DNA from: Cloacibacillus evryensis DSM 19522
GTDB lineage: Bacteria > Synergistota > Synergistia > Synergistales > Synergistaceae
Reading direction: 5' to 3'
Assembly (NCBI RefSeq): GCF_000585335.1
Contig: NZ_KK073872.1
Location: 1,417,283-1,481,282 of the forward strand
Length of the DNA stretch: 64,000 nt
Every line of letters starts with the position of its first letter. Position 1 is the first letter of the stretch. Shown here one piece after another: positions 31,080-45,714 of this stretch. Made by a program: the position numbers and the translations under genes. Below the pieces are notes generated by a model. That model was not told the origin of the DNA. It saw only the letters and a list, made by a program, of their open reading frames with translations, and searched no databases.

Positions 31080-31884
31080 CGACAGAAGAGAACGCGAGAG
31101 GCGCGGCGGCGCGGATAGGAGAAACGAGCGCGCGCCGTCTGAGGATATCTGCTGGGGGCGCAATCCCGTGATCGCGCTGCTCGAGGGGGACCCGGAGCGT
31201 TGTATGAAGGTGCTTGTCTCCAAAGGCGCGCAGCCCCATATAAAAGCTAAAATCACGGAGCTATGCCGCGCGAACGGCATAATATTCCAGAATGTCGAGG
31301 GCGCGGCGCTCGACCGGCTGACGAACGGCGAGAACCACCAGGGCGTCGCGGCCTACACCGCGCAGATGAAGCTCTGGGAGGCGGAAGATCTGCTGGCCTC
31401 GCTGCCGGCGGCGCCAGCGCCCGTGCTGCTGCTGCTCTGCGACCACCTGCAGGACCCGCACAACCTCGGCGCGGTGATCAGAAGCGCGGAGGCCGCGGGC
31501 GCGGCGGCGGTGATGATACCGAAACGCGGCGGCTGCCTGCCGACGGGGACCGTCGTCAAGACGAGCGCCGGCGCGGCGCTGCGGCTGCCCGTCGTCAAAG
31601 TCGGAAATATTTCGCAGACGATAAAACTGCTTCAGGAGGCGGACTTCTGGGTGACGGGACTCGCGATGGAGGGGCGTGAAACGCTCTTCAAAGAGGACCT
31701 GCCGCCGCGCAGCGTCATCGTCGTCGGCGCGGAGGGCGAAGGTCTCGGCACGGCGGTGACCAAGGCCTGCGACGATATCCGTTTCATCCCGATGCTGGGG
31801 GCGACGGGTTCGCTCAACGCCTCCGTCGCCGCGAGCCTCGCGATGTTCGAGTGGTCGCGGTCGCGGCGGCCGTCGGCGCAATAA
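31072..31884 (+). CDS. rlmB: TrmH/RlmB-family 23S rRNA 2'-O-ribose methyltransferase
   Basis: This SPOUT-class methyltransferase has 270 residues. It has an N-terminal substrate-binding domain (CWGRNPVIALL onward) and a knotted catalytic domain. The motifs are LCDHLQDPHNLGAVIRSAEA (motif 1), VVGAEGEGL (motif 2) and GATGSLNASVAASLAMFEW (motif 3). An extra basic N-terminal tail of about 20 residues is rich in Arg. It overlaps the end of uvrA by 8 bases. RlmB (G2251) is the likeliest target, but TrmH-family members differ. Confidence 0.88.
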
Positions 31885-31905
31885 AAAAACAGGAGTTTTA
31901 AAGAT

Positions 31906-31949
31906 GTGCCGCCGCGGCTATGAAAGACAGTCCGCGGCGGCGGTTTTTT
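31906..31949. terminator. Terminator between convergent rlmB and the Crp/Fnr gene
   Basis: A 10-bp perfect GC stem pairs 31908-31917 with 31932-31941, and six T follow on the + strand. It is clear for rlmB and weaker for the - strand gene. Confidence 0.85.
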
Positions 31950-32709
31950 ATTTCATCAGTTCCATGTGCTTTTGCAGGGCTTCGGCGCTTCTGACGCAGA
32001 GGTAGCAGTTTATCTGTTCGAGCAGGGATATGTCGCGCAGCTCTTTGAATTTCTTCGAGACCGTCACGCGGTTCATGCCGAGCATGTCGGCGATCGTCTG
32101 TTGGCTGAGCTTCTCGGCGATGAGGATCTTCCCGTCGTAGCCGGTGCCGTAATGCTCCATAAAGATCTGCAGCAGGCGGCATATCTTCCATTCCGCGGAT
32201 TTTTGCTGCCCGCAGCGTATTTGCCCCATCGCGGAGAGAAATTTCCCCGCCATCGATTTGCAAATGTCCATCACGATATCGATATCATGTTTGAAGGCGT
32301 GCTTCAGCGCGCATTTATGAATGCGCACGAGCGTCGAGGGCACCATCGTCTTGAAGAGGACGGGACTCGGCTTGTCGACCAGCATACATTCCTCGAGAAA
32401 GACGGAATTCGGCTCCATGAAGCTGTAGATGCGCTGTTCGCCGCCAAAGGTCAGCTCGTAGCAGATGACGCGCCCCTCCTTCACGAGGTAGCAGTATTCC
32501 GGCACCTCGTCCACCCTGTTGAGTTCGTAATCCCTGCCGACCCGGATCACCTCGCCGAGCTCCTCGAGCCGCGCGATCCCCTGCGGCAGATAGTATAGAT
32601 GGCGTATCTGGTCGTCGCACGTCCGGTCGATCTTCTTGTCATCCTCCACCGTCATCCCCGCCTTTCCGCGTAACCAAGATAACATTGTCTTTTTAACTAC
32701 ACAAGTAGC
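31948..32709 (-). promoter_or_regulatory. Note: cis region of the Crp/Fnr gene is at its 5' end
   Basis: No internal site is seen within this coding span. The inverted repeat that overlaps the start codon at 32703-32720 is listed on its own. This entry records only that the gene body shows no second promoter or operator. Confidence 0.1.
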
Positions 32710-32712
32710 CAA
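31948..32712 (-). CDS. Crp/Fnr-family transcriptional regulator
   Basis: This 254-residue protein has an N-terminal cyclic-nucleotide-binding-type beta-barrel (EYCYLVKEGRVICYEL, then FGGEQRIYSFMEPNSVFLEE). A long dimer helix and a C-terminal winged HTH (SQQTIADMLGMNRVTVSKKF) follow. FNR-like N-terminal iron-sulfur cysteines are not arranged in the usual spacing, so the effector is unknown. The TTG at 32712 follows AAGGAGGA (on the - strand). It is divergent from the molybdenum hydroxylase operon and is likely its regulator, by position only. Confidence 0.88.
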   Translation of the reverse strand: MATCVVKKTMLSWLRGKAGMTVEDDKKIDRTCDDQIRHLYYLPQGIARLEELGEVIRVGRDYELNRVDEVPEYCYLVKEGRVICYELTFGGEQRIYSFMEPNSVFLEECMLVDKPSPVLFKTMVPSTLVRIHKCALKHAFKHDIDIVMDICKSMAGKFLSAMGQIRCGQQKSAEWKICRLLQIFMEHYGTGYDGKILIAEKLSQQTIADMLGMNRVTVSKKFKELRDISLLEQINCYLCVRSAEALQKHMELMK

Positions 32713-32720
32713 GGCTACTT
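32703..32720. promoter_or_regulatory. Inverted repeat over the regulator's start codon
   Basis: AAGTAGCC (32703-32710) and GGCTACTT (32713-32720) are perfect 8-bp arms around 2 bases. The TTG start codon (complement of 32710-32712) lies at its centre, and the ribosome-binding site lies just outside. It could be a self-operator or an mRNA hairpin that hides the start. Confidence 0.55.
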
Positions 32721-32815
32721 ACTCCTCCTTTTTCAAACGTCTAAGATAAAAAACGAAGAGCCCATGGGAGAGCTTTGGAAAAATCGCCATACGATCATAA
32801 AAGGGAGGAACAAGA

Positions 32816-33697
32816 ATGACTTTGCCGAATTTTAACTATATCGCCGCCAAAAGTCTCGTGGAGGCCTCGGAGCTCGCGGCCGCCCAGGCCGGCAGATGCG
32901 TGCTGATGGCTGGCGGGACTGACGTGATCCTGCTGCTCAAGGAGAACGTTTTGAAGGGCGTGGAGAGCGTCATTGACCTGAAAAACATCCCGGGGATAGA
33001 CGGGCTGGAGTTTATCGAGGGCGAGGGACTGCGCGTCGGCGCGCTCACGAAGCTCTACGCGATCCAGAACTCGCCGCTGGTGCGCGAAAAGATGCCGGCC
33101 GTCGCCGACGCCGCGCACTATGTCGCCTCAAGCCAGATACGCCGCAAGGGGACGATGGCCGGCAACATCTGCAACGCCTCGCCCTCGGCCGATACCGCGC
33201 CGATATTGGTGGCGATGAACGCGACAGTCGCAGCCTACGGCAAAAACGGCGGGCGCGAGATACCGGCCGGGGAGTTTTTCACCGGCGTAAAGCGGACCTG
33301 CCTCGACAAGGCTGCGGGGGAGATCGTTACGGAGATAAAGATACCTGAGCTCAAGCCGCAGGAGGGCTCGGCCTACTTCAAGCACTCCGTGCGCAAGGCG
33401 ATGGATCTCGCGATCATCGGAGTCGCCGCCTGGGTGCGGATGGAGGGCTCACGGGTCGCCGACTGCCGCATCGCCATGGGCGGCGTCGGCGTGACGCCGC
33501 TGCGCGCGAAAGAGGCGGAGCGGATGCTGATCGGCGGCGAGGCGGGCGACGACCTGTTCGAGAGGGCCGGAGCCGCCGCCTCGCAGGAATGCCGTCCGAT
33601 CTCCGACGTGCGCGCCTCGGCGGAATACAGGGTGGATATGGTGCGCGTCTACACGAAGCGCGCCCTTAAAAAGGCGCTCGAGACGCTGAAGGCTTAA
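32816..33697 (+). CDS. Molybdenum hydroxylase, FAD-binding subunit (CoxM/XdhB-like)
   Basis: This is the medium subunit of the xanthine dehydrogenase/CO dehydrogenase family. It carries FAD and passes electrons from the iron-sulfur subunit to the acceptor. The two FAD motifs are LMAGGTDVIL near residues 29-38 and the TMAGNICNASPSADTAP stretch near 112-128. The C-terminal CO_deh_flav_C domain is present. The 293-residue length is normal. GGGAGGAA precedes the ATG. It is the first gene of the operon, followed 18 bp later by the 2Fe-2S subunit. Confidence 0.9.
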   Translation: MTLPNFNYIAAKSLVEASELAAAQAGRCVLMAGGTDVILLLKENVLKGVESVIDLKNIPGIDGLEFIEGEGLRVGALTKLYAIQNSPLVREKMPAVADAAHYVASSQIRRKGTMAGNICNASPSADTAPILVAMNATVAAYGKNGGREIPAGEFFTGVKRTCLDKAAGEIVTEIKIPELKPQEGSAYFKHSVRKAMDLAIIGVAAWVRMEGSRVADCRIAMGGVGVTPLRAKEAERMLIGGEAGDDLFERAGAAASQECRPISDVRASAEYRVDMVRVYTKRALKKALETLKA

Positions 33698-33715
33698 GAG
33701 GGGAGGCCCGCGAAG

Positions 33716-34198
33716 ATGAAAAGGATCATAAAATTCAAGCTCAACGGCGAGGATATCGAAGAGCTGGTACAGGACAACATTACGATGGTCGATTTTCTGC
33801 GCCAGCAGATGCACATGACGGGGACGAAACGCGGCTGCGAAGAGGGCGAATGCGGCGCCTGCACCATCCTGCTGGACGGCGCGGCGGTCGACTCCTGCCT
33901 GATGCTCGCCGTCGAGGCGGCGGGGCGCGAGGTCGTCACCATCGAGGGCGTCATGAAGGACGGCGTCCTCCACCCGCTGCAGAGGGAGTTCATGGACAAG
34001 TGGGCCCTGCAGTGCGGCTTCTGCACGCCGGGCATGATCATGTCCGCCCTCTCGCTGCTGCATGAAAACCCACACCCGATGGAGCACGAGATCCGCGACG
34101 CGATCGCCGGCAACCTTTGCCGCTGTACGGGCTATACGAAGATCGTCGAGGCGATCGACTCCGCGGCGAAGATACTCGAAAGGCAGGCGAATGCATAA
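33716..34198 (+). CDS. Molybdenum hydroxylase, 2Fe-2S subunit (CoxS/XdhC-like)
   Basis: This is the small electron-transfer subunit of 160 residues with two 2Fe-2S clusters. The plant-type cluster is ligated by C41, C46, C49 and C61. The second cluster uses C100, C103, C135 and C137 (CGFC and CRC motifs). All eight ligands are present, so the protein should be functional. It overlaps the large subunit start by one base (TAATG). Confidence 0.95.
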   Translation: MKRIIKFKLNGEDIEELVQDNITMVDFLRQQMHMTGTKRGCEEGECGACTILLDGAAVDSCLMLAVEAAGREVVTIEGVMKDGVLHPLQREFMDKWALQCGFCTPGMIMSALSLLHENPHPMEHEIRDAIAGNLCRCTGYTKIVEAIDSAAKILERQANA

Positions 34199-36636
34199 TG
34201 GCGATAAAGTCAAAGGAATATTACGCCGAGATCGAAAGCGTCTATAAAAAGCCCGAGGACTACGAGCTGGCGGGCAAGGGCAACGCCTACGTGCGCATCG
34301 ACGCCGAGGCGAAGGTGACGGGGCGCGCCGTCTACACCGACGACGTCGACCTGCCCGGCATGTATTACTGCAAACTCGTCCACAGCCCCTACGCGCACGC
34401 GCTCATCAAAAGCATCGACTTTACCGAGGCGCTCCGGCTGCCGGGTGTCAAGGGCGTGCTCACGGGACGCGACTTTCCCGAAGGGCACAACCTCGGCAAC
34501 CCCGAAGCCTTCAAGGAGCTGGCCGACAAGGAGCCGCTCTGCCGTAAAAAGGTGCGCATGATCGGCGACGAGGTCGCCGCCGTCTGCGCCGTAACTGAGG
34601 ATATCGCCGCGGAGGCCGCCGCGCTCGTTAAGGTCGAATACGAGCCGCTGCCGGTCGTCCTCGACCCCTTCGACTCGATGCAGCCGGAGGCGGAGCCGAT
34701 CCACTATCCGGGCACTAACAATCTTTCGATCTTCACGACGATGAGGGCGGGCGAACCGGACAAAGCCTTCGCCGAGGCCTATTACACCGACCGGCATTAC
34801 TATAAGACGCAGGAGATGGTCCACGCCGCCATCGAGCCGCACGGCGCGGCGGCGAAATACGAGAACGGCGAGTGGACCGTCTGGACGACGACGCAGGGGG
34901 CCTATGTGAGCCGTTTCTGGATCGCCTGGGGGCTCGGCGTGCCCGAGAGCCAGGTGCGCGTCATCAAGCCGATGGTCGGCGGCGGCTTCGGCGGCAAGCT
35001 CGACGTATTCGCGCACGAGCTCTGCCCCTGCAAATTCGCGCAGATGACGGGCCATCCCGTGAAATGCGTGCTCAAGCGCGACGAAGTCTTCACCTGCACG
35101 CGCACGCGCCATCCGATATCCTTTGAGATCGAAAGCGCCTTCACCAAGGAGGGCAAGATGCTCGCCAAACGCTGCAAGCACATTCTCGACGGCGGCGCCT
35201 ACGGCGGCTCGGGCATCGCGGCGAACACACTCTCGCTTATCTGCGCCACCTTCCCCTATAAGGTGGAAAACATCGACATGACGGCGAGACGCCCTTACAC
35301 GAACCATCCCGCCTCGGGCGCGATGCGCGGCTACTCCGCCTGTCAGGTGCACTTCGCCCACGAGATACATATGGACGAGGTGGCCAACGCGCTCGGCATC
35401 GACCCGCTCGAATTGCGCCGCAAGAATGAGATCACTCCCTACTATACGGGGCCGACGGGGCTGGAGTTCACCTCCTGCAAGTTCGACGAGTGCCTTGTGG
35501 CCTGCGCAGACGCCATCGGCTGGGCCGAGAGGGACAAATATCCCATCGGCAGCGGCGAGGCTGTCGGCCTCTCCGGCTCTGGCTTTATGTCGGGAACGGG
35601 CTTCCCCGTCCTCGTCACGCCGCATTACTGCTCGGCATCGACGATCGTGCGCCTCAACCGCGAGGGCTACGCCGTCGTCTTCTGCGGCGCGAACGACATC
35701 GGACAGGGCTGCGACACCGTAATGACGATGATCGTCGCCGAAGAGCTCGGCCTGCGCATGGACGAGGTCAAGCTCGTGCAGTCCGACACCACGACGACGC
35801 CGTGGGACGCCGGCTCCTTCGGCTCACGCGTCACCTTCCTCGGCGGCAACGCCTGCCGCCGCGCCGTCGGCGACGCGAAACTCAAACTGCTCTCGCACTG
35901 GGCCGAGGAGTGGGGCTGCAAGCCCTCGGACATCAAGATGAAGGACCACCGAGTCTTCATCGAGGGCGACGCGGAGAAGAACATCTCCTACAACGAGGCC
36001 TGCTTCGGCTACGAGGAGAGGAACTTTGGCCGCTGCGTCGCCGGCGTCGGTTCCTTCGCGCACGAGGGCGACAAGGATATCTATGTGAAAAACGTCGGCA
36101 ACTACGCGCCGGCCTATTCCTTCTCCGCCTCGGCGGCGAAGGTCAAGGTCGATATGGAGACCGGCGGCGTCGAGCTCGAGGACTTCGTCTTCGGCCATGA
36201 CTGCGGGCGCGCGCTGAACATCCGCGCCGTCGAGGGGCAGATAGAAGGTTCGGTCCTGCTCGGTCTAGGCTTCAGCTGTTTTGAGGAGTGCGTCTACAGC
36301 AAAGAGGGAAAACATCTGAACCCGAGCTTCCGCGACTACCGTTTCCCGACGGCGCTCGACATGCCGCCGATCAAGACGATCATCTGCAGCGAGGCCGACC
36401 CCGAGGGGCCGATGGGCGCGAAGGAGGCGGGCGAAGGCAGCACCGCGCCGGTCGGTTCGGCCATCGGCAACGCCGTCAACTACGCGACCGGGCTCACGCT
36501 GCGCGAGCTGCCGATCACGCCGGAGCGCATCTGGCGCGCGCTGAAGGAGCGCGAGCGCACGGGAAAGACGGCTTTCGGCGCGGAGGATCTGCGCGATAAG
36601 TTTAACAACATGCCGCCGCTCCCCGAGCGTAAATAG
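34198..36636 (+). CDS. Molybdenum hydroxylase, molybdopterin-binding large subunit (CoxL/XdhA-like)
   Basis: This 812-residue catalytic subunit binds the molybdenum-pyranopterin cofactor. The N-terminal a/b hammerhead domain begins GKVTGRAVYTDDV-like. The cofactor-binding regions include MVGGGFGGKLD, GAMRGYSACQ and NDIGQGCDT. The catalytic glutamate of the family is E746 in AKEAGEGST. The CO dehydrogenase active-site loop with a Cu-binding cysteine (AYRCSFR) was not seen, so a true CO dehydrogenase is unlikely. The substrate (purine, N-heterocycle or aldehyde) cannot be assigned. The ATG at 34198 replaces an upstream start inside the previous gene. Confidence 0.9.
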   Translation: MAIKSKEYYAEIESVYKKPEDYELAGKGNAYVRIDAEAKVTGRAVYTDDVDLPGMYYCKLVHSPYAHALIKSIDFTEALRLPGVKGVLTGRDFPEGHNLGNPEAFKELADKEPLCRKKVRMIGDEVAAVCAVTEDIAAEAAALVKVEYEPLPVVLDPFDSMQPEAEPIHYPGTNNLSIFTTMRAGEPDKAFAEAYYTDRHYYKTQEMVHAAIEPHGAAAKYENGEWTVWTTTQGAYVSRFWIAWGLGVPESQVRVIKPMVGGGFGGKLDVFAHELCPCKFAQMTGHPVKCVLKRDEVFTCTRTRHPISFEIESAFTKEGKMLAKRCKHILDGGAYGGSGIAANTLSLICATFPYKVENIDMTARRPYTNHPASGAMRGYSACQVHFAHEIHMDEVANALGIDPLELRRKNEITPYYTGPTGLEFTSCKFDECLVACADAIGWAERDKYPIGSGEAVGLSGSGFMSGTGFPVLVTPHYCSASTIVRLNREGYAVVFCGANDIGQGCDTVMTMIVAEELGLRMDEVKLVQSDTTTTPWDAGSFGSRVTFLGGNACRRAVGDAKLKLLSHWAEEWGCKPSDIKMKDHRVFIEGDAEKNISYNEACFGYEERNFGRCVAGVGSFAHEGDKDIYVKNVGNYAPAYSFSASAAKVKVDMETGGVELEDFVFGHDCGRALNIRAVEGQIEGSVLLGLGFSCFEECVYSKEGKHLNPSFRDYRFPTALDMPPIKTIICSEADPEGPMGAKEAGEGSTAPVGSAIGNAVNYATGLTLRELPITPERIWRALKERERTGKTAFGAEDLRDKFNNMPPLPERK

Positions 36637-36674
36637 GCCGGCGCGGCCCTGTTCCGGGAGAAGCGTGAAGAGTG

Positions 36675-38288
36675 ATGGACGACAAAGAGTGGGAGGTCAG
36701 CGCCGCTCAGATAAAAAAGGCGCACGGCTATTCGGCGCCCGAGAGCCAGCTCCGCCTTGCCGAGACGGCGCGCGAGGCGGGGGAGCTGGCGCGTGAGATA
36801 CTGCGCCTCTCCCGCGACACGTTGCTCATCAACCTGCGCTTCCTGGAATCGGCGCTCATAAGGTTTGTGCCGGAGAACGACACCGTCACCGCCGAAATGG
36901 CCACGGACGGACGCTTTCTCTATTACAATTCCGCGCACGTCTGCCGCCGCTTCCTGAAGGGGCGGCAGACGCCGGCGCGGGATTATCTGCATATCGTGCT
37001 GCACTGTCTCTTCCGCCATCTTTTCGTCGGCGCGAAGGTCAATCCCGACCTCTGGGATCTCGCATGCGACATCGCGGTGGAGAACGTCATCTGCGGCCTC
37101 GGCCTCCGGTCCCTTTATTGTGAAAGAGAGGAACGCCAGGCGCGGCTGCTCCGCAAGCTGCGCGGCGAGCTGCCGCACCTTTCGGCGGAGCGGATTTATC
37201 GCTGGCTGCGGGAGCAGAGCTTTCCCATTATCGAATGCGAGCGGCTGCGCGCCGACTTCTATGCCGACGATCACAAGATATGGCACAAACCGCCGGAGCT
37301 GACAGGCGGTTCGGGAAAAGGCGATACGCGCGACAGCGCCGAACCGCAGGCCGGCGAAGAGCGGGAGATCAGCGGGCTTGACGACCAGGGGGACGAGGCC
37401 GCCGCGCCGCCTGAACCCGGCGAAGAGGGGGAGCCGGCGGGGGCCGGCGGCGTGGCTGCGGACGAAAACCGCGCCGGGGAAAGCGGCGACAGCGCCGCCG
37501 GCTTGGGAGATGACGAGAAGAGCCGCGAGCCGGCGCTGACGCCCAAGGAGACGGAAGAGATGTGGCGGGAGGTATCGCGGCGCATCGAAGTCGACCTCGA
37601 GACCTTTTCCGGCAGCTGGGGTGAAAACGCTGGCGGCATCACGCAGGCCCTCTCGGAGATAAACCGCGAGAAGTGCGACTACGCGGCCTTTCTGCGCCGT
37701 TTCGCGGCGCTCGGAGAGAATATTGAGGTCAACGACGAGGAGTTCGACTATATCTTTTATACCTACGGGCTCTCGTTATATAAAAGAATGCCGCTCATTG
37801 AGGCGCTCGAGTATAAGGAGGTGCGGCGCGTGCGTGAATTCGTCGTCGCGCTCGACACCTCGGAATCGGTCGCGGGCGCTCTCGTGCAGAAGTTCGTTGA
37901 GAAGACGTGGAACATCCTCAAGCAGACGGAAAACTTTTTCACGCGGGTCAACGTGCACATCATCCAGTGCGGCGCGCGCGTCGAAGAGGACGCGAAGATC
38001 ACGAGCCAGGAGGAGTTCGACGCCTATATGCGCCGCATGTCGCTCAGGGGTTTCGGCGGCACGGACTTCCGTCCGCTCTTTGAATATGTGGACGGACTTA
38101 TAAAGAGAAATGAATTTACCAACTTTAAGGGGCTGATCTACTTCACCGACGGCTACGGCGATTTTCCCGCCATGCCGCCGGAGTACGAGACGGCCTTCGT
38201 CTTTATCGACCAGGGGCGCAAAGCTCCCGCGGTCCCCGTCTGGGCGATACGGCTGCTGCTCTCCGAGGACGAGATAGATGAACTGTGA
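36675..38288 (+). CDS. VWA-domain protein with DUF2201-like metallopeptidase N-terminus (COG3864-like)
   Basis: The N-terminal half resembles the predicted metal-dependent peptidase domain paired with VWA domains. The expected HExxH-x4-H region reads HIVLHCLFRH (106-115), so Ile replaces the catalytic Glu. A low-complexity acidic linker spans about 210-290. The C-terminal VWA-like domain has a MIDAS DxSxS (D394, S396, S398) and GGTDFRP. The length is 537 residues. ATG 36675 is preferred to GTG 36672. It lies 38 bp after the Mo subunit and overlaps the LRR gene by 11 bp. Such proteins act with MoxR ATPases, one of which is encoded two genes away. Confidence 0.75.
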   Translation: MDDKEWEVSAAQIKKAHGYSAPESQLRLAETAREAGELAREILRLSRDTLLINLRFLESALIRFVPENDTVTAEMATDGRFLYYNSAHVCRRFLKGRQTPARDYLHIVLHCLFRHLFVGAKVNPDLWDLACDIAVENVICGLGLRSLYCEREERQARLLRKLRGELPHLSAERIYRWLREQSFPIIECERLRADFYADDHKIWHKPPELTGGSGKGDTRDSAEPQAGEEREISGLDDQGDEAAAPPEPGEEGEPAGAGGVAADENRAGESGDSAAGLGDDEKSREPALTPKETEEMWREVSRRIEVDLETFSGSWGENAGGITQALSEINREKCDYAAFLRRFAALGENIEVNDEEFDYIFYTYGLSLYKRMPLIEALEYKEVRRVREFVVALDTSESVAGALVQKFVEKTWNILKQTENFFTRVNVHIIQCGARVEEDAKITSQEEFDAYMRRMSLRGFGGTDFRPLFEYVDGLIKRNEFTNFKGLIYFTDGYGDFPAMPPEYETAFVFIDQGRKAPAVPVWAIRLLLSEDEIDEL

Positions 38289-40245
38289 ACGGAAATCATC
38301 GGCGATGAAAAACGGCGATTTTGAGATAAAAGACGGCGTACTGGTAAGGTATCACGGCGAAGAGCGCTTCGTCGGGCTGCCGCCCGGGCTCTTGGCCGTC
38401 GGCGAGGGGGCTTTCCGCGACTGCCGCTCGCTCGAGGAGGTCTATATCCCCGATGGCGTGGCGGAGATAGGGCGCGAAGCCTTTCAATGGTGCGCGAACC
38501 TGAAGCGCGTGGCGGCCCCGGCGAGCGTGACGGAGGTGGGGCGCGGCGCCTTCGCCGGCACGCCCTACTATAAATTTTACTGCGAAAACGAGACGGAGTG
38601 GCGCGAGGACTTCCTCTTCATCGGCAGATGCCTCGTCAAGGCACGCCGCAACCTGCGCCGCGCCGCGATCCCCGAAGGGACGGCGGCGATCGCGGCGGAC
38701 GCCTTCGCTGAGCGCGTGCTGCTTAACGAGCTCTCGATCCCGCGAAGCGTCTCCCGTATCGGCTGGCGCGCCTTCGCCGACTGTACGGGGCTCACGCGCG
38801 CGCACATCCCCGACGGCGTCAGGCTGCTGGGCTGGCACTGCTTCAAGGGCTGCTCGCGCTTGCTGGAGGCCTCCTTTGAAGAGGGGACGGAAGAGATAGA
38901 GAACGGCATCTTCTCCGGCTGCCGCAGCCTGCGGCGCGTCGAATTCCCCGCGAGCCTCAAGAGACTTGGCGGCTGGGCCTTCTTCGGCTGCGGCAATCTT
39001 GAGGAGGTCTGCTTCAAGGGAGAGCTGGCGGCGGTCGGCGAGCGCGCCTTTTCCGGCTGCGCGGGCCTGCGCCGCGCGGAGCTGCCTGAGAGCGTCGAAG
39101 TCATCGGCGTCGACGCCTTCTATGACTGTACGAACGTAGAACTGCGGCTGCCGCGCGGGCTGCGGCGGCTGGAACGCCGCGCCTTCGCGGGCGCGCGCAG
39201 CCTCGCGGAGCCCGCGCTGCCGCCGTCGCTCGAATACCTCGGCGAAGGCGTCTTCAGCGGCTGCGGGAGCATAGAAAAAGTGACGGTCCCCGCGAAGGTG
39301 AAAAAAATTCCCGGCCACGCGTTCGGCGGCTGCGAAAAGCTGGCGAAACTCACGCTGGAAGAGGGCGTCGCGGAGGTCGGCCCATACGCCTTTGCCGGCT
39401 GCCGCGCTCTGCGTGGGCTCGCAGTGCCCGAGGGCGTGACGGAGATAGGAGAAGGGGCTTTCGCAAACTGCCGGGCCTTAGAAAAGATAAAACTGCCTAA
39501 ATCCCTGTCACGGCTGGGCGAGAAGGCCTTCGCCTCCTGTCCCTCCCTGCGCGAAGCGGAGATGCCGGAGGAAATCGCGGAGATCGGCGGCGGCCTCTTT
39601 GACGGCTGCCGCGCCCTCGCGGACGAAGAGGGCTTTGTGATCATCGACGGCGTCTGTTACGGCTGTCAGAGAACGGCCTTTGAGCTCGTCCTTCCCGCCG
39701 GCGTCCGCGCCGTGGCGAGCGGAGCTTTCAGGGACGGCGCGGGATACCGGGGCGTCACGCTGCCGGAGAGCGTCGAACGTGCGGGCGTCCGCGCCTTCGC
39801 CGGCTGCGCGGAGCTGCGCCGTCTCGTCCTCCCGGAAAAGGTGAAGGCGTTGGGACCGGAGCCCTTTGCGGGGTGTTCTTCGCTGCTCGTCGTGGAGGCT
39901 CCGGGGATCGCGCCGCGCGGCTTTGACGAAGAACGGGCGCGCCTTGCGGCGGCGCTCGGCTTCTGCGGCGCGGAGGAGAGGTATCGCGGCGGCGTTGCGC
40001 GCTCCTATTCCGTCTACGCGGAGGAGGAAAAAGAAAACCTCCTCAATGCCGCCATCGACAACGGCCTCGCGGATGCCGCCGCCTATTTCACGCGCCGCGC
40101 GCTGCTTTCGGCGGCGGAGTTCCGCGCGGCGCTGGAGCGCGCACAGCGGAAAAAAGAGGCGGAGATCGTGGCGCTGCTGCTCGCGTACGGCAACGACAAA
40201 CTGCGCGGAGAAGACATCTTCGCCAAATATTCTTTAGACGATTGA
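38278..40245 (+). CDS. BspA-type leucine-rich repeat protein
   Basis: This 655-residue protein is made of about 20 LRR_5 repeats of 22-24 residues (consensus IPDGVxxIGxxAFxxCxxLxxV), from about residue 30 to 545. A helical C-terminal tail (residues about 570-650) resembles the ankyrin-like tail of some BspA proteins. No signal peptide or membrane anchor is visible, so it is probably cytosolic, unlike surface BspA adhesins. It is translationally coupled to the VWA gene (11-bp overlap) and followed 25 bp later by the AAA ATPase gene, suggesting a scaffold or recognition part of that system. Confidence 0.8.
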   Translation: MNCERKSSAMKNGDFEIKDGVLVRYHGEERFVGLPPGLLAVGEGAFRDCRSLEEVYIPDGVAEIGREAFQWCANLKRVAAPASVTEVGRGAFAGTPYYKFYCENETEWREDFLFIGRCLVKARRNLRRAAIPEGTAAIAADAFAERVLLNELSIPRSVSRIGWRAFADCTGLTRAHIPDGVRLLGWHCFKGCSRLLEASFEEGTEEIENGIFSGCRSLRRVEFPASLKRLGGWAFFGCGNLEEVCFKGELAAVGERAFSGCAGLRRAELPESVEVIGVDAFYDCTNVELRLPRGLRRLERRAFAGARSLAEPALPPSLEYLGEGVFSGCGSIEKVTVPAKVKKIPGHAFGGCEKLAKLTLEEGVAEVGPYAFAGCRALRGLAVPEGVTEIGEGAFANCRALEKIKLPKSLSRLGEKAFASCPSLREAEMPEEIAEIGGGLFDGCRALADEEGFVIIDGVCYGCQRTAFELVLPAGVRAVASGAFRDGAGYRGVTLPESVERAGVRAFAGCAELRRLVLPEKVKALGPEPFAGCSSLLVVEAPGIAPRGFDEERARLAAALGFCGAEERYRGGVARSYSVYAEEEKENLLNAAIDNGLADAAAYFTRRALLSAAEFRAALERAQRKKEAEIVALLLAYGNDKLRGEDIFAKYSLDD

Positions 40246-40270
40246 CAGTATTTGTCAGGGAGGGATCTTT

Positions 40271-41788
40271 TTGAACATAGCGGAGGCCAAAGAGCAGATA
40301 AAGGACGCGATGACCGCCTACTTTACAAAGGACGAATTCGGCGCTTACCGCATCCCGGTGGAAAAACAGCGCCCCATATTCATGATCGGGCCGCCCGGCG
40401 TCGGCAAGACCGCCGTCATGGAGCAGGTAGCCGCGGAGCTCGGCGTTGGCCTCGTCTCCTATTCCATGACCCACCATACGCGCCAGAGCGCGCTGGGCTT
40501 GCCCTACATCACGACGCGGGAGTTCGGCGGCGAAAAGTACCAGGTCTCCGAATATACGATGAGCGAGATAATCGGCTCCGTCTACCGCCTGATGGAGGAG
40601 ACGGGGGTGAGGGAGGGCATCCTTTTCCTCGACGAGATCAACTGCGTCTCCGAAACGCTCGCCCCCTGTATGCTCCAGTTCCTTCAATATAAGGTATTCG
40701 GCCAGCACCGCGTCCCCGCGGGCTGGATCGTCGTCACCGCCGGCAACCCGCCGGAATACAACAAATCGGTGCGCGATTTCGACATCGTCACCTGGGACCG
40801 CCTGAAACGCATCGACGTCGAGCCCGATTACGAGGTCTGGAAGGCCTACGCGGAGAAAAAGGGCGTCCACCCCGCCGTCACCACCTACCTCGCGGCGCGC
40901 CGGAAGGATTTTTACAAGGTCGAAAGCGCGGCGGACGGCAAACGCTTCGTCACCGCGCGCGGCTGGGACGACCTCTCGGAGATGATGCGCCTCTGTGAGG
41001 AAAACGGCCTTGCCGTCAATGAAAAACTCATCGGCCAGTATCTGCAGGAGCCGAAGATCGCGAAGGACTTTGCCATCTATTACGACCTCTTCAATAAATA
41101 CCGCGGCGACTATCAGGTAGGAGCGATCCTCGCCGGCGCGGCGGATGAGGCGGTGCTCTTTCGCGCGCGTCAGGCTCGGCTCGACGAGCGGCTGTCGCTG
41201 ATCGGACTGCTCTTCGACGCGCTGACGGCGGAGCTGCGCGGCGTCTGTGACAGCGAGGATGCGCTTGATTCGCTGACCGCCGAACTGAAAAAACTGTGCG
41301 GGCTGCTGGCGGAGGAAGAGGGCGCGCCGGCTGATACGCTTGACAGGCAGATCGCCGGACTGCGCGCGGAGCTTGAAAAGGGCCGCCGCGCCTCTTCGCT
41401 GCCGGCGGCGAAACAGCGGACGCTGCTGCGCGTCATCGCCGCGCTGGAGGAATACCGCGCTTCGGTCATCAAAAGCGGCGCGGCGGACGGCAGGGCGGCC
41501 TTCGCCCTCGTCAGTGAGAGCTTCGCGAAATCCGTCGCGCGGCTCAAAGAAAGCGCGTCGGCGGCGGGCGCGGCGCTTGACAACGTATTTGACTTTTGCG
41601 GGAAAGCCTTCGGCGAGGGGGACGAGATGCTGATCTTCGTCACCGAGCTGACGGCGGGCTACTACAGCGCGCGCTTCATCGGCCACTACGGCTGTGAGAA
41701 ATATTATCTGCATAACAGAGAACTCCGTTTTCAGGAGCGGGACCGGGAGCTGCGCGACCGCGCCGGCAAACTGGACTGGACGATATAG
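40271..41788 (+). CDS. MoxR-type AAA+ ATPase
   Basis: This 505-residue AAA+ protein has Walker A GPPGVGKT (40-47), Walker B ILFLDEIN (near 117-124) and the sensor region VVTAGNPPEYN. A helical C-terminal extension of about 200 residues follows. MoxR ATPases work with VWA proteins to mature or activate metalloenzymes and other complexes; CoxD with CoxE is the Mo-hydroxylase precedent. The TTG at 40271 follows GGAGGG. The VWA partner is two genes upstream. Confidence 0.85.
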   Translation: MNIAEAKEQIKDAMTAYFTKDEFGAYRIPVEKQRPIFMIGPPGVGKTAVMEQVAAELGVGLVSYSMTHHTRQSALGLPYITTREFGGEKYQVSEYTMSEIIGSVYRLMEETGVREGILFLDEINCVSETLAPCMLQFLQYKVFGQHRVPAGWIVVTAGNPPEYNKSVRDFDIVTWDRLKRIDVEPDYEVWKAYAEKKGVHPAVTTYLAARRKDFYKVESAADGKRFVTARGWDDLSEMMRLCEENGLAVNEKLIGQYLQEPKIAKDFAIYYDLFNKYRGDYQVGAILAGAADEAVLFRARQARLDERLSLIGLLFDALTAELRGVCDSEDALDSLTAELKKLCGLLAEEEGAPADTLDRQIAGLRAELEKGRRASSLPAAKQRTLLRVIAALEEYRASVIKSGAADGRAAFALVSESFAKSVARLKESASAAGAALDNVFDFCGKAFGEGDEMLIFVTELTAGYYSARFIGHYGCEKYYLHNRELRFQERDRELRDRAGKLDWTI

Positions 41789-41798
41789 GAGGTCAATA

Positions 41799-42272
41799 AT
41801 GAACGACGACAATCGGAGACTGGCGGAAAAATTCCTGCCGCTGATAGAGGAGGAGCGCCGGGCCTTTATCAGGGCGGAGCATGGACGGCTGCTGCGGCTC
41901 ATCGGGGCGGAGTATTGGCGGCCGCGCGGAGAGAAGGCATACTTTTTCCATCGCGGCGCGGAGGAGGAGGCCCTTCCCGCCGACCCATACGAACTGAGCC
42001 TTGGCGAACTCGCGATGCTTCCCGGCCTTGAAAAGCGTGTGGAGCGGCTGGGGACCTACAGTTACCTCGCTTTCTTTCAGATGTTCCCCCGTGACAGGGA
42101 GCGCCTAGCCTTTCTCTCCGGCCTCTGGCTCAGGCTGACCAAGGGGCTCGGCTGCACGGAGGCGGAGGCGGAGAGACTCACCGGCGGACACGACGGTTAT
42201 CTGGCGTGGAAACGCGGCGATACGGTGAGGGTGATCGTGCCGGAGGGCTGGGGCGCCCATGCGTGTAATTGA
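41799..42272 (+). CDS. Uncharacterised protein in the MoxR/VWA operon
   Basis: I do not recognise this 157-residue protein. It is soluble, charged, predicted mainly helical, and rich in Glu, Arg and Leu. There is no signal peptide, metal motif or nucleotide-binding motif. AGGAGGT precedes the ATG at 41799, which replaces an upstream start inside the AAA gene. It starts 10 bp after the AAA gene and overlaps the trigger-factor-like gene by 14 bp, so it is very likely part of the same functional unit. Confidence 0.7.
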   Translation: MNDDNRRLAEKFLPLIEEERRAFIRAEHGRLLRLIGAEYWRPRGEKAYFFHRGAEEEALPADPYELSLGELAMLPGLEKRVERLGTYSYLAFFQMFPRDRERLAFLSGLWLRLTKGLGCTEAEAERLTGGHDGYLAWKRGDTVRVIVPEGWGAHACN

Positions 42273-43371
42273 TAAAAAAACGGACGGAGAAACGCTTGCC
42301 GTCACGCTGCTGATAGAGCCGGAAGAATTCGCCGAGGCGCTGCGCGAGGCCTATCTCGACGACAGTGAGCGCTATGTCGTTCCCGGCTATGCTCCCGGCC
42401 TCGCGCCCCGCGCGGCGATCGAAGCCGTGTACGGACCGGAGGCCCTGTTCGACGAAGCGATCGCCGCCGCCCTCCCGGCGGCCTACGGAAAATTTCTTGC
42501 GGAAGAAAAGCCGCGTACCGTGGGCAAGCCCGAAGCGTCGGATATAACCCTCCTCGCGGGCGGCGGCCTGCGCTTTCGGGTAAGGGCCGACCTCTGCCCG
42601 CGGGTACGCCTCGGAGCCTATAAGGGGCTGCGGATAACTCTTCCGGAGGGCGCGGACGAGGAAAATTTCAGGATGGCGGCGCTAAGGGCGGCCTGCAAAG
42701 AGATGGAGGGACGTCCCTCGGAGGCGATGGTCGAGGAGAGACTCGACGCGACGGCGGCGCGGGAACAGCTCAACGTCTCCCGTGACGCCGTCTATCACCT
42801 GCTTGCCGATTCTGCCTGGCTCCTGCGCGAGACATACCTCGCGGCGGGGCTTTCGCGCCCTCCGGCGCAGGTGCGCGCCGAGGCGCTTGACGTGATGCTT
42901 GAGGCCGCCTCGGGCGGCAACGCCGACCCCTCTTGGGAATTTATCGCGCGGCGGCTGCGCGGGCTTGCCGCGCGCTACCGTGCGCTGCCCGATGATTTTG
43001 ACGAGACTCTCGCGGGGTTATTCAAACGCCGCGCCGCCGTCAAAGAGGGAATGACGCCGGAAGAGCTTGCGGCGGATGCCTTCGGCGCCTACCTTGGCTC
43101 CATCGGCCTCGACGAGAAGAGGTGGCGCGCTGAGCGCCGCGCCGAGGCGGAGGAGTCGGCGCGCTGCGACCTGCTGCTTGAGGCCGTGGCGGAGGCGGAG
43201 GGGATCACGGCCTCCGGGGACGAACTGCTGGCGCTGACCGCGGAGATCGCCGCGCGCTGCGGCATGGAGACTGCGGAGGCCGCGGCGCGTATCGACGCTG
43301 AACCGCTGCGCCGCAAGATAGCGCGCGACAAAGCCTGTCGCCTCATTGTCGCGAGCGCCGTGCGGGCGTGA
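42259..43371 (+). CDS. Trigger-factor-like protein lacking the PPIase domain
   Basis: The first ~125 residues follow the trigger-factor ribosome-binding domain: a TLLIEPEEFAEALREAYLD helix, a PGYAPGLAP loop at the signature position (42-50), AIEAVYGPEAL, and RVRLGAYKGL. The C-terminal half follows the chaperone arms, ending with the characteristic EAEESARCDLLLEAVAEAEG helix (about 294-313). The FKBP-type PPIase domain is absent: 370 residues against about 430-450. The basic GFRxGxxP ribosome contact of true trigger factor is replaced by a loop with no Arg or Lys. A client-specific assembly chaperone is inferred. Confidence 0.7.
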   Translation: MRVIDKKTDGETLAVTLLIEPEEFAEALREAYLDDSERYVVPGYAPGLAPRAAIEAVYGPEALFDEAIAAALPAAYGKFLAEEKPRTVGKPEASDITLLAGGGLRFRVRADLCPRVRLGAYKGLRITLPEGADEENFRMAALRAACKEMEGRPSEAMVEERLDATAAREQLNVSRDAVYHLLADSAWLLRETYLAAGLSRPPAQVRAEALDVMLEAASGGNADPSWEFIARRLRGLAARYRALPDDFDETLAGLFKRRAAVKEGMTPEELAADAFGAYLGSIGLDEKRWRAERRAEAEESARCDLLLEAVAEAEGITASGDELLALTAEIAARCGMETAEAAARIDAEPLRRKIARDKACRLIVASAVRA

Positions 43372-44753
43372 TGAAGCCCGGAGCGGAGGATCTGGAGCGC
43401 GGAGACCTGCACCGGCTGCTGCGCGGTTACTGCGTCCCCGCGCTTGCCGCGGGCCTCGTCACATCTTTCTATAATATCGTTGACCAGATCTTCATCGGGC
43501 GCGCCCTCGGAGTCGTGGGGAACGCCGCCGCCGGCGTGGTCTTTCCCGCCGTCACCGTCATCACCGCGCTCTCGCTGATGTGCGGCGTCGGCGCCGCCGC
43601 CGTCATGAGCCTCTCCCTTGGGCGCGGGGATGTGGAGGGCGCGCGCCGCGGCGCCGGCTGCGGCTTCGTCCTCATGGCGCTCTGCGGCGGGGCCGCCTCG
43701 CTCGCGATGCTTTGCCTGACGGCGCCGCTGCTTCGCCTCTTCGGCTGCACGGAGACGGTACTGCCGTACGCCGCGCCCTACGCGCGGATAACGGCCCTCG
43801 CCTTCGTCTGCGCGATGACCGGCGCCGCGGGGCCTTTTCTCCTGCGCGCCGACGGCAGCCCCAAATACGCCCTCTGCTGCACGGCGGCGGGGGCGCTGCT
43901 CAACGTCGCGCTCGACGCGCTCTTCATCAGCGCCTGCGGGTGGGGGATAGCTGGCGCGGCCTGGGCCACGGCGCTGGCACAGAGCGTCAGCGCCGCCATG
44001 GTGCTTGCCTACCTGCCGCGCTTTAAGACCATGCGGCTGAGGGCGGCGGACTTTATCCCCGACCTCCGGCTCTGCGCGCGCATCGCCGCGCTTGGCGCGG
44101 GGCCGATGTGCAACTTCCTCACGCAGGCCGTCGTACAGATATTTTTAAACGCCGCGCTGAGAAAATACGGCGCGGCCTCAGCCTGCGGCAGCGAAGCCGC
44201 GCTGGCCGCGGCCGGCGTCGCCAACAAGGCCAACACGCTGGCCGCCGCCGTCGTTACGGGCCTCACGAACGGCATGCAGCCAATCGTCGGCTACAACTTC
44301 GGGCGCGGAAATTACACGCGCGTGAGGGAGGCCGGCCTCCTCGTCGTTAAAACGGTGATCGCCGTATCCTTCTGTATCTTCCTCTGCTATCAGTTGATCC
44401 CGCGGCAGATCGCCGCGCTCTTCGGCGCGGGGACGGAGGCCTACTTCGACTTCGCCGCCCGTTTTTTTCGCATCTTCCTGATGATGACCTTCCTCAACGG
44501 CCTGCAAAGCTCCGTCGGCGGCTTCTTCTCCGCGCAGGGGAAGCCTCTTTTCAGCATCCTCATCTCCGTCGCGCGCCAGATCATATTCCTGCCGCCCCTT
44601 TTGCTGCTCCTGCCGGCGCGCTTCGGCCTTGACGGCGTCCTCTGGTCCGGCCCCATAGCCGACCTTGCGACTGCCGCGATCGCCATCTTTCTTATGGCGC
44701 GCCGCTGCCGTCTGCTGGAGGAAATGCGGCGAGCGGGAGAATTGCGCCGGTAA
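43371..44753 (+). CDS. MATE-family multidrug/metabolite exporter
   Basis: This 460-residue polytopic membrane protein has about twelve hydrophobic segments in two halves. The N-terminal start VPALAAGLVTSFYNIVDQIF and the second-half motif GLTNGMQPIVGYNFG are characteristic of MATE transporters. Its ATG overlaps the preceding stop by one base, so it belongs to the same transcript. The substrate is unknown. It closes the co-directional cassette; downstream DNA is AT-richer and degenerate. Confidence 0.88.
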   Translation: MKPGAEDLERGDLHRLLRGYCVPALAAGLVTSFYNIVDQIFIGRALGVVGNAAAGVVFPAVTVITALSLMCGVGAAAVMSLSLGRGDVEGARRGAGCGFVLMALCGGAASLAMLCLTAPLLRLFGCTETVLPYAAPYARITALAFVCAMTGAAGPFLLRADGSPKYALCCTAAGALLNVALDALFISACGWGIAGAAWATALAQSVSAAMVLAYLPRFKTMRLRAADFIPDLRLCARIAALGAGPMCNFLTQAVVQIFLNAALRKYGAASACGSEAALAAAGVANKANTLAAAVVTGLTNGMQPIVGYNFGRGNYTRVREAGLLVVKTVIAVSFCIFLCYQLIPRQIAALFGAGTEAYFDFAARFFRIFLMMTFLNGLQSSVGGFFSAQGKPLFSILISVARQIIFLPPLLLLLPARFGLDGVLWSGPIADLATAAIAIFLMARRCRLLEEMRRAGELRR

Positions 44754-44771
44754 AGGCAGGATAAATATAGC

Positions 44772-44816
44772 GAACGGGGCTCCGGTCGGTACAAATACCG
44801 ACATGAACGGGGCCGG
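44772..44816. repeat. Direct repeat flanking a perfect hairpin
   Basis: GAACGGGGC occurs at 44772-44780 and 44805-44813. Between them GTCGGTA (44785-44791) and TACCGAC (44796-44802) form a perfect 7-bp stem with a 4-base loop. There is no T tract, so it is not a standard terminator. Confidence 0.6.
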
Positions 44817-44907
44817 TTGACTGAACTCAAACGTTAAATCAGAAATAAATGTTAAATAACTCCTTTTAGTGATTATCGCAGTTTGATAATTACTGATTTA
44901 TGACTTT

Positions 44908-44923
44908 TGGCGGACGACCGCCA
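44908..44923. repeat. Short perfect hairpin
   Basis: TGGCGG (44908-44913) pairs with CCGCCA (44918-44923) around ACGA, inside the small ORF at 44900. Confidence 0.5.
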
Positions 44924-44947
44924 CTTAAAAATGTGAAAAAACTCAAA

Positions 44948-44965
44948 ATGGCAGTCGACTGCCAT
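44948..44965. repeat. Perfect 18-bp palindrome
   Basis: ATGGCAGTCGACTGCCAT reads identically on both strands with no spacer. It lies in a non-conserved AT-rich stretch. It may be a protein-binding site or a relic of an element end. Confidence 0.7.
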
Positions 44966-45178
44966 CAGAATGGCGGAATCCCGACGTATGCAAAACCGGG
45001 AAAAAATGCTAACGTAATGGCGTTCAGCCACCTCAAAAAGAATTTCCGGCGCTGGTTCACGATAGAAAAATGAAATCACGAAAGGGCAGCGGATGAATAG
45101 TACCCATTTGTTCATCAGCCGCGTGCGCCGGGCCGGAGGCGCGCGCCGTGAAAAACTTTTTGAAGGGAGCTGCTGCAA

Positions 45179-45586
45179 ATGAGAGAAGGGCCAAAGGCAA
45201 GAGTCCTCACAGAGGGCTGGCGAAACATAAGTATCGGAAAAGGGGGGGGGGCGCACAATAGCGGAAGGGCAAGTTTTTTTGAGAAACGAAACCCTGGCGA
45301 TTCCTCCAAACGCCAGCAAATCATCCGTATAACGGCCCCGATAGACCTCTCGGCGCATCTGTGGGAGCCGATAGGCAATGGTATCGACAGCAGCCTAACT
45401 TTTTGTGGAATCTTCGACGGAGGCGGCTTTCCGATAACCGGAATGAAGGTCGTCAGCAGCGCGCAATACGCGGGGTTTTTCGGCGTTGTAGGCGCCAGTG
45501 GCATTGGCCCCACCCTGCTCAGCATCAACCTCAGCGGAAACGTCAGCAACTCCAACAGTGGTGACACTTCACGGCGCCGCCTCTGA
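45179..45586 (+). pseudogene. Remnant of a GLUG-repeat/adhesin-like surface protein
   Basis: The 135-codon frame contains ITAPIDLSAHLWEPIGNG, FDGGGFPITGMKVVS and YAGFFGVVG. Together these match the repeat unit of GLUG-type surface proteins (IDLS..W.PIG.....FDG.G..I.G......aGlFG). Only about one repeat remains. There is no signal peptide or anchor, and the N-terminal part is unrelated low-complexity sequence containing a G10 tract. A GAAGGGAG precedes the ATG with wide spacing. I call it a pseudogene fragment, although a short expressed protein is possible. Confidence 0.5.
45242..45251 (+). repeat. Homopolymeric G10 tract
   Basis: Ten consecutive G lie within the reading frame of the adhesin-like remnant. 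Tracts of this length slip during replication and, in surface-protein genes of other bacteria, cause phase variation. A T7 run follows at 45274-45280. Confidence 0.8.
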
Positions 45587-45714
45587 CCTGGTGGCTGTAG
45601 GACGGCGGCACGGGGCCGCGGGAACGCCTGCCGAAGCCCCGCGCCTATTATGCAAAAAATAAAATTGATGTTACAATAGCGCGAGTGACATAAATATTAT
45701 GGAGGTGTTTGAAC

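Follow-up and report, generated by a model that had tools for sequence, protein, structure and literature searches.

A 64,000-nucleotide stretch of the Cloacibacillus evryensis DSM 19522 genome, hereafter the window, encodes a 370-amino acid trigger factor (TF) homologue that lacks the prolyl-isomerase (PPIase) domain, has changed ribosome-contact residues, and is linked to an operon for a molybdoenzyme of the xanthine-oxidase family. We consider it probable, at roughly 0.6, that this TF-like protein works off the ribosome as a private, TF-derived holdase that matures the operon's molybdoenzyme together with a MoxR ATPase and a VWA protein. TF is taught as a general ribosome-bound chaperone; the protein described here would be a conserved version with neither ribosome contact nor prolyl-isomerase, linked to a single enzyme and a single AAA+ machine.

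An earlier note on this DNA had held that the N- and C-terminal halves of the protein follow TF while the PPIase domain is missing, and both points were borne out by domain profiles. In Pfam, Trigger_N matched residues 1-129 (8.3e-19; 68.7 bits against a cut-off of 22.2) and Trigger_C matched residues 282-364 (3.9e-9; 37.2 bits against 22.7). The latter match covered profile positions 75-161 only, although structure comparison found the whole C-terminal domain to be present. No FKBP domain was found up to E = 1. The NCBIfam tig model (TIGR00115) scored 91.5 bits (5e-26), about half of its cut-off of 180.2, and the protein is thus not a tig equivalog. Across the family, both Trigger_N and Trigger_C were matched in Pfam by all 14 members (the window's protein plus 13) and FKBP by none of the 14, while 5 of them additionally matched SurA_N, a chaperone module. 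Profile-profile comparison with 28 canonical TFs gave an hhalign probability of 99.2 over 350 columns, of which the middle part, the canonical PPIase region, is untrustworthy.

Structure prediction pointed the same way. An AlphaFold2 model built on the family alignment (pLDDT 90, pTM 0.74) had trigger factors as all of its top eleven Foldseek matches, the best being 2vrh at 1.7e-8. Compared with 3gu0 and 1w26, the model gave a VIA-align Z of 13.3 over 257-262 residues at an rmsd of about 7 Å, a deviation that plausibly arises from domain movement. Taken alone, the N-domain reached a VIA-align Z of 11.9 to 1oms, the E. coli ribosome-binding domain, and the C-domain a Z of 9.6 to 2nsa. Between the N-domain and the C-terminal arms, residues 134-263 were modelled as helices and loops, with no sheet and no PPIase fold. 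Hence, the two checks that the note had suggested, a profile-profile search and a structural comparison with E. coli TF, returned significant Trigger_N and Trigger_C matches and a TF-like fold with its C-terminal arms.

The signature loop of the protein, reported previously as GYAPGLAP, was found to be in register with the GFRxGxxP of TF: In the alignment to the PDB structure, G43-Y-A-P-G-L-A-P50 fell on GFRKGKVP 43-50 of E. coli TF. Of the 14 aligned proteins, 12 have the loop, and all 12 carry Ala at the position of Arg45; the basic positions on either side were mostly lost, and both loop glycines were kept in each of the 12. The other two (L057:11722-12708 and L059:12004-13014) have lost ~30 residues in frame, including the entire ribosome-contact loop, with the remainder of the protein intact. 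Since L059 stems from a named strain and not from a metagenome bin, its loop loss is less likely to be an assembly artefact. The 28 Synergistia canonical TFs used for comparison, which were chosen with a relaxed motif, retained GFR[KR]Gx.P. Replacement of FRK44-46 by AAA prevents E. coli TF from associating with ribosomes. Of the claim that the protein has left the ribosome, the loss of the contact residues stood as observed, and from these sequence changes we strongly infer that it no longer binds ribosomes.

The window genome also contains the second, canonical tig that such a reading calls for (G000:C1:1690895-1692175, locus L003). Its 457-amino acid frame has both TF domains and carries GFRKGKIP, and a gene that reads by eye as clpP adjoins it. 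Among the relatives' genomes that carry the operon, 15 of 16 have a canonical TF, and the sole carrier without one is a 2.1-Mb metagenome-assembled genome that may be incomplete. A third, weaker Trigger_N match was seen in two clostridial genomes (G184:C16:18255-18440 and G196:C44:4950-5105), possibly marking another TF-derived family.

The gene lies in an inserted cassette whose features are collected in Table 1. From left to right, a divergent CRP regulator is followed by the FAD, [2Fe-2S], and Mo-cofactor subunits, the DUF2201/VWA protein, the LRR protein, the MoxR AAA+ ATPase, P160, the TF-like protein, and the MATE exporter. MoxR AAA+ and VWA genes thus sit in one operon beside a xanthine-oxidase-family enzyme. 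The start of the large subunit (MAIKSKEY) is our own reading, the mechanical open reading frame beginning at 34117. Its closest solved structure was 4-hydroxybenzoyl-CoA reductase (1rm6, 5.9e-112), and it scored below every NCBIfam equivalog cut-off; on these two counts, an identity as a true xanthine dehydrogenase was not established. No signal peptide was evident by eye on the LRR protein. P160 occurred in each of the 16 enzyme-linked loci that extend to its position, and its AlphaFold2 model (pLDDT 86) found no PDB fold match under E 3 (best VIA Z 4.8). The regulator family F5 occurred in 11 of the 17 loci compared. MATE neighbours, which are co-located in most loci, were 56-67% identical in L058, L059, L062-L064, L068, L086, and L113. 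At the right end of the cassette, a short open reading frame (45179-45586) resembles, by eye, a fragment of a repeat-containing surface protein.

Table 1. Features of the cassette, in window coordinates.
Feature	Position	Strand	Evidence
Inserted cassette, 13.8 kb, between rlmB and metK	31864..45647	.	Empty site in same-genus genome G001
CRP/FNR-family regulator (family F5), divergent	31948..32712	-	cNMP_binding 3.1e-7, HTH_Crp_2 6.7e-10
Molybdenum hydroxylase FAD subunit (XdhB-like)	32816..33697	+	FAD_binding_5 2.4e-43, CO_deh_flav_C 1.7e-30
Molybdenum hydroxylase [2Fe-2S] subunit	33716..34198	+	Fer2_2 6e-33, Fer2 3.6e-6
Molybdenum hydroxylase large (Mo-cofactor) subunit, 4-hydroxybenzoyl-CoA-reductase/XdhA-like	34198..36636	+	MoCoBD_1 6.4e-69, MoCoBD_2 1.2e-64
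VWA protein with DUF2201_N putative metallopeptidase domain (MoxR partner)	36672..38288	+	DUF2201 1.8e-10, DUF2201_N 2.9e-10
BspA-type leucine-rich-repeat (LRR) protein	38278..40245	+	LRR_5 2.6e-95
MoxR-like AAA+ ATPase, 505 aa	40271..41788	+	AAA_5 4.2e-8, AAA 8.9e-8, bpMoxR 1.8e-4
P160, conserved 157-aa protein	41799..42272	+	No Pfam family over cut-off
TF-like chaperone (Trigger_N plus Trigger_C, without PPIase)	42259..43371	+	Domain profiles, predicted fold
Degenerate ribosome-contact loop GYAPGLAP, residues 43-50	42385..42408	+	Alignment to TF
MATE-family exporter	43368..44753	+	MatE 1.9e-36

Scanning named genomes with the window's AAA+ protein led to 61 loci, which belong almost entirely to Clostridia and other Bacillota, and 14 of these encode the TF-like protein (the copy in L065 being cut by the contig). 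The operon gene set recurs in these 14 clostridial loci, often including MATE, and the core gene order is common to them, with extra genes between P160 and the TF-like gene in L060, L061, L066, and L081. In two of these, the insertion includes a type I 3-dehydroquinase-like gene (L066:12346-12996, Pfam 1.9e-14; L060:11188-11847, by resemblance only), possibly a clue to the kind of substrate that the enzyme handles. P160 preceded the TF-like gene in every TF-like locus with sufficient contig, and the same molybdenum hydroxylase lay upstream wherever the contig reached that far (11 loci). The 17 enzyme-linked rows formed one clade of the AAA+ tree, with support of 100/99; three of them (L067, L071, and L111) are on contigs that end before the TF-like position, and the L111 genome has a Trigger_N match in a 386-amino acid frame on another contig. 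The AAA+ relatives outside this clade are accompanied by VWA and often LRR genes, without TF-like, P160, or enzyme genes. Such VWA - MoxR AAA+ - BspA-type LRR sets are widespread in Clostridia (L069-L117, e.g., L082, L084, and L095), often with many LRR proteins nearby.

We also searched for the gene away from the operon. In one order, a TF-like profile matched 5 of 394 genomes; across the class it matched 1 of 391, and in a second order 1 of 387. All of these were known operon carriers, and no TF-like gene was found outside the operon in these about 1,170 clostridial genomes. Since the samples partly overlap and operon carriers are few, this test of co-occurrence is limited, but it is clean. 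With the enzyme large subunit as the query and E up to 1e-180, 5 of 345 genomes of the first order matched, and these are the five that have the TF-like gene. The recruitment to one operon that the earlier note had suggested is thus upheld by 14 further loci, a single-origin AAA+ clade, and no member found outside it; the molybdenum hydroxylase, the MoxR and VWA content, the horizontal origin, and the wider distribution go beyond what it had described.

Within the Synergistia, the cassette appears to be a foreign element. In the same-genus genome G001, metK directly follows rlmB, such that window position 31863 corresponds to G001 1556644 and window position 45648 to G001 1556645, with rlmB 90% and metK 96% identical between the two. 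The 13,784 bases were either gained in the window lineage or lost in that of G001, and in view of the clostridial relatives we favour insertion. No flanking direct repeat or mobile-element signature was found at its ends. Apart from the window's own genome, 61 genomes were searched, G001 among them, and none yielded a close TF-like homologue; what matched did so weakly (20-30% identity), nearly always in frames of canonical-TF length. Given this absence and the empty site in G001, we rejected a native Synergistia gene.

The cassette proteins diverge at very different paces. Between the window and its clostridial counterparts, the large subunit is 80-90% identical and the AAA+ protein 63-73% (54% for the truncated L113), while the LRR, VWA, P160, and TF-like proteins evolve fast, at 36-76% and mostly 40-60% identity, with 39-51% for the TF-like protein. 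The TF-like gene is nevertheless under purifying selection and is functional in the evolutionary sense: Its dN/dS was 0.20 in the least saturated pair (L066/L081, dS 0.28) and 0.05-0.06 in two pairs with larger, partly saturated dS. All 13 complete clostridial homologues have Met at the same aligned start and a full open frame, and 32 columns are invariant when the window's protein is aligned with the 13 others of the family. The domain scores and the fold, together with the conserved start codons and the dN/dS values, led us to reject a pseudogene or a chance resemblance.

How might such a protein serve the operon? The protein is a TF paralogue that has lost the PPIase and the ribosome-contact residues but has kept its N-terminal domain and, at the C-terminus, the substrate cradle with both arms. 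We propose that it acts as a holding chaperone off the ribosome, dedicated to one operon. From the operon linkage and the precedent of CoxD and CoxE, its likeliest client would be the molybdoenzyme, most probably the large cofactor subunit. The TF-like protein may keep this subunit, or a partly assembled complex, open, while the MoxR ATPase and its DUF2201/VWA partner would spend ATP in remodelling the client so that the molybdenum centre can be inserted or activated, with the LRR protein and P160 as possible adaptors. In CO dehydrogenase, which belongs to the same enzyme family, the molybdenum site is completed by the MoxR-type CoxD and the VWA protein CoxE (PMC4240915), and MoxR proteins are generally tied to the maturation of dedicated complexes (PMC3893208). 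Enzymes of the xanthine-oxidase family require system-specific chaperones, and their Mo centre is deeply buried (PMC2997495), so the apoenzyme must stay accessible, a step that a holdase would fit. A bolder idea, to which we give somewhat less than even odds, is that these parts form a new kind of molybdoenzyme maturation machine: A ribosome-free TF would hand the apoenzyme to a remodelling complex of MoxR, VWA, and LRR proteins, P160, which matched no known fold, would serve as an adaptor, and the whole would have spread between phyla as one cassette.

Several observations weigh against a private holdase for the enzyme. An XdhC-type chaperone is encoded elsewhere in 13 of the 15 host genomes, and this known insertion route may serve the enzyme; the same finding weakens the notion that the TF-like protein replaces XdhC, and it more likely adds to it. 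The VWA-AAA-LRR core is widespread without enzyme or TF-like protein, which leaves room for another partner, and a tight client interface would be expected to be better conserved than the TF-like protein, at about 40% identity, is beside its 80-90% conserved enzyme. An off-ribosome chaperone that assembles the remodelling machine itself (VWA, LRR, or P160) and not the molybdoenzyme would account for this uneven divergence, with the enzyme conserved and the LRR, VWA, P160, and TF-like proteins changing fast, as well as for the place of the TF-like gene, which in most loci comes immediately behind AAA+ and P160, and for P160 and TF-like genes co-occurring wherever contigs allow. We nonetheless regard it as unlikely, since the sister VWA-AAA-LRR sets do without a TF-like protein, and what distinguishes the TF clade is the enzyme plus P160.

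The remaining alternatives concern the protein's location, its function, and the nature of the cassette. It is improbable that the protein still binds ribosomes via other contacts and acts co-translationally on its own operon's products: The N-terminal domain fold (Z 11.9) and, in members with the loop, its glycines are kept, but every aligned member with a loop has Ala in place of the central arginine, the flanking basics are mostly gone, and two members deleted the whole loop while keeping the rest. Still more improbable is a MoxR-VWA-LRR conflict or defence system with the TF-like protein and the enzyme as effector or regulator. Predicted ternary conflict systems are indeed built around MoxR-VWA pairs (PMC8195603), the AAA+ protein has a weak bpMoxR match, and the cassette is sporadic and mobile. 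Yet PADLOC was unconvincing (AAA+ only, partial, best 1.4e-5), and conservation is highest in the linked enzyme, a better fit to metabolism. Among the proteins scanned, effector-associated domains, VMAP, iSTAND, and TERNS3 had no match in Pfam or PADLOC, which remote versions could escape. A decaying, functionless tig duplicate, as fewer domains and rapid divergence might suggest, is already contradicted by dN/dS of 0.05-0.20, the shared start and open frame in 13 complete homologues, the 32 invariant columns, and the same operon position across two phyla, and we give it hardly any credence. A private holdase for the molybdoenzyme remains our preferred reading.

In the open-access literature, no TF-like protein encoded in a MoxR/VWA/molybdoenzyme operon turned up, and nothing that combines TF with xanthine dehydrogenase, an operon, and an AAA ATPase. 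The cassette resembles the CoxD/CoxE arrangement in that a MoxR AAA+ and a VWA protein are encoded with a xanthine-oxidase-family molybdoenzyme; the Cox systems use the XdhC-like CoxF, however, and TF-like, LRR, and P160 components are undescribed there (PMC4240915). With XdhC-family chaperones (PMC2997495), the TF-like protein would share the role of a system-specific chaperone for such enzymes, but domain searches revealed no similarity, and XdhC is encoded elsewhere in most host genomes. If confirmed, the operon may help explain how substrates are handed over to MoxR/VWA pairs, an open question for the MoxR family.

Compared with Tig itself (Trigger_N-FKBP-Trigger_C), the protein shares the N- and C-terminal domains by sequence and predicted fold, but it has neither the FKBP PPIase nor the GFRxGxxP loop, and its gene belongs to a metabolic operon, beside a separate canonical tig. 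Extra TF copies without the ribosome-binding motif next to one complete copy are known, many of the genomes being Clostridia, of which 209 were counted with several TF copies; the copies described there mostly lack the N-terminal domain, and those of M. xanthus keep the PPIase (PMC11559001). Here, in contrast, the N-domain is kept with changed contact residues and the PPIase is gone, and the passages of that study consulted here describe no operon context, although its data set may include some members of our family without context. Chloroplast Tig2 is likewise a truncated TF with a new dedicated task, but it consists of the ribosome-binding domain only and acts on ribosome assembly (PMC11731035), whereas the TF-like protein has lost the ribosome contact and kept the cradle. 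In this protein, the TF cradle would thus be naturally separated from the part that TF plays on the ribosome, and there is a defined candidate for its client.
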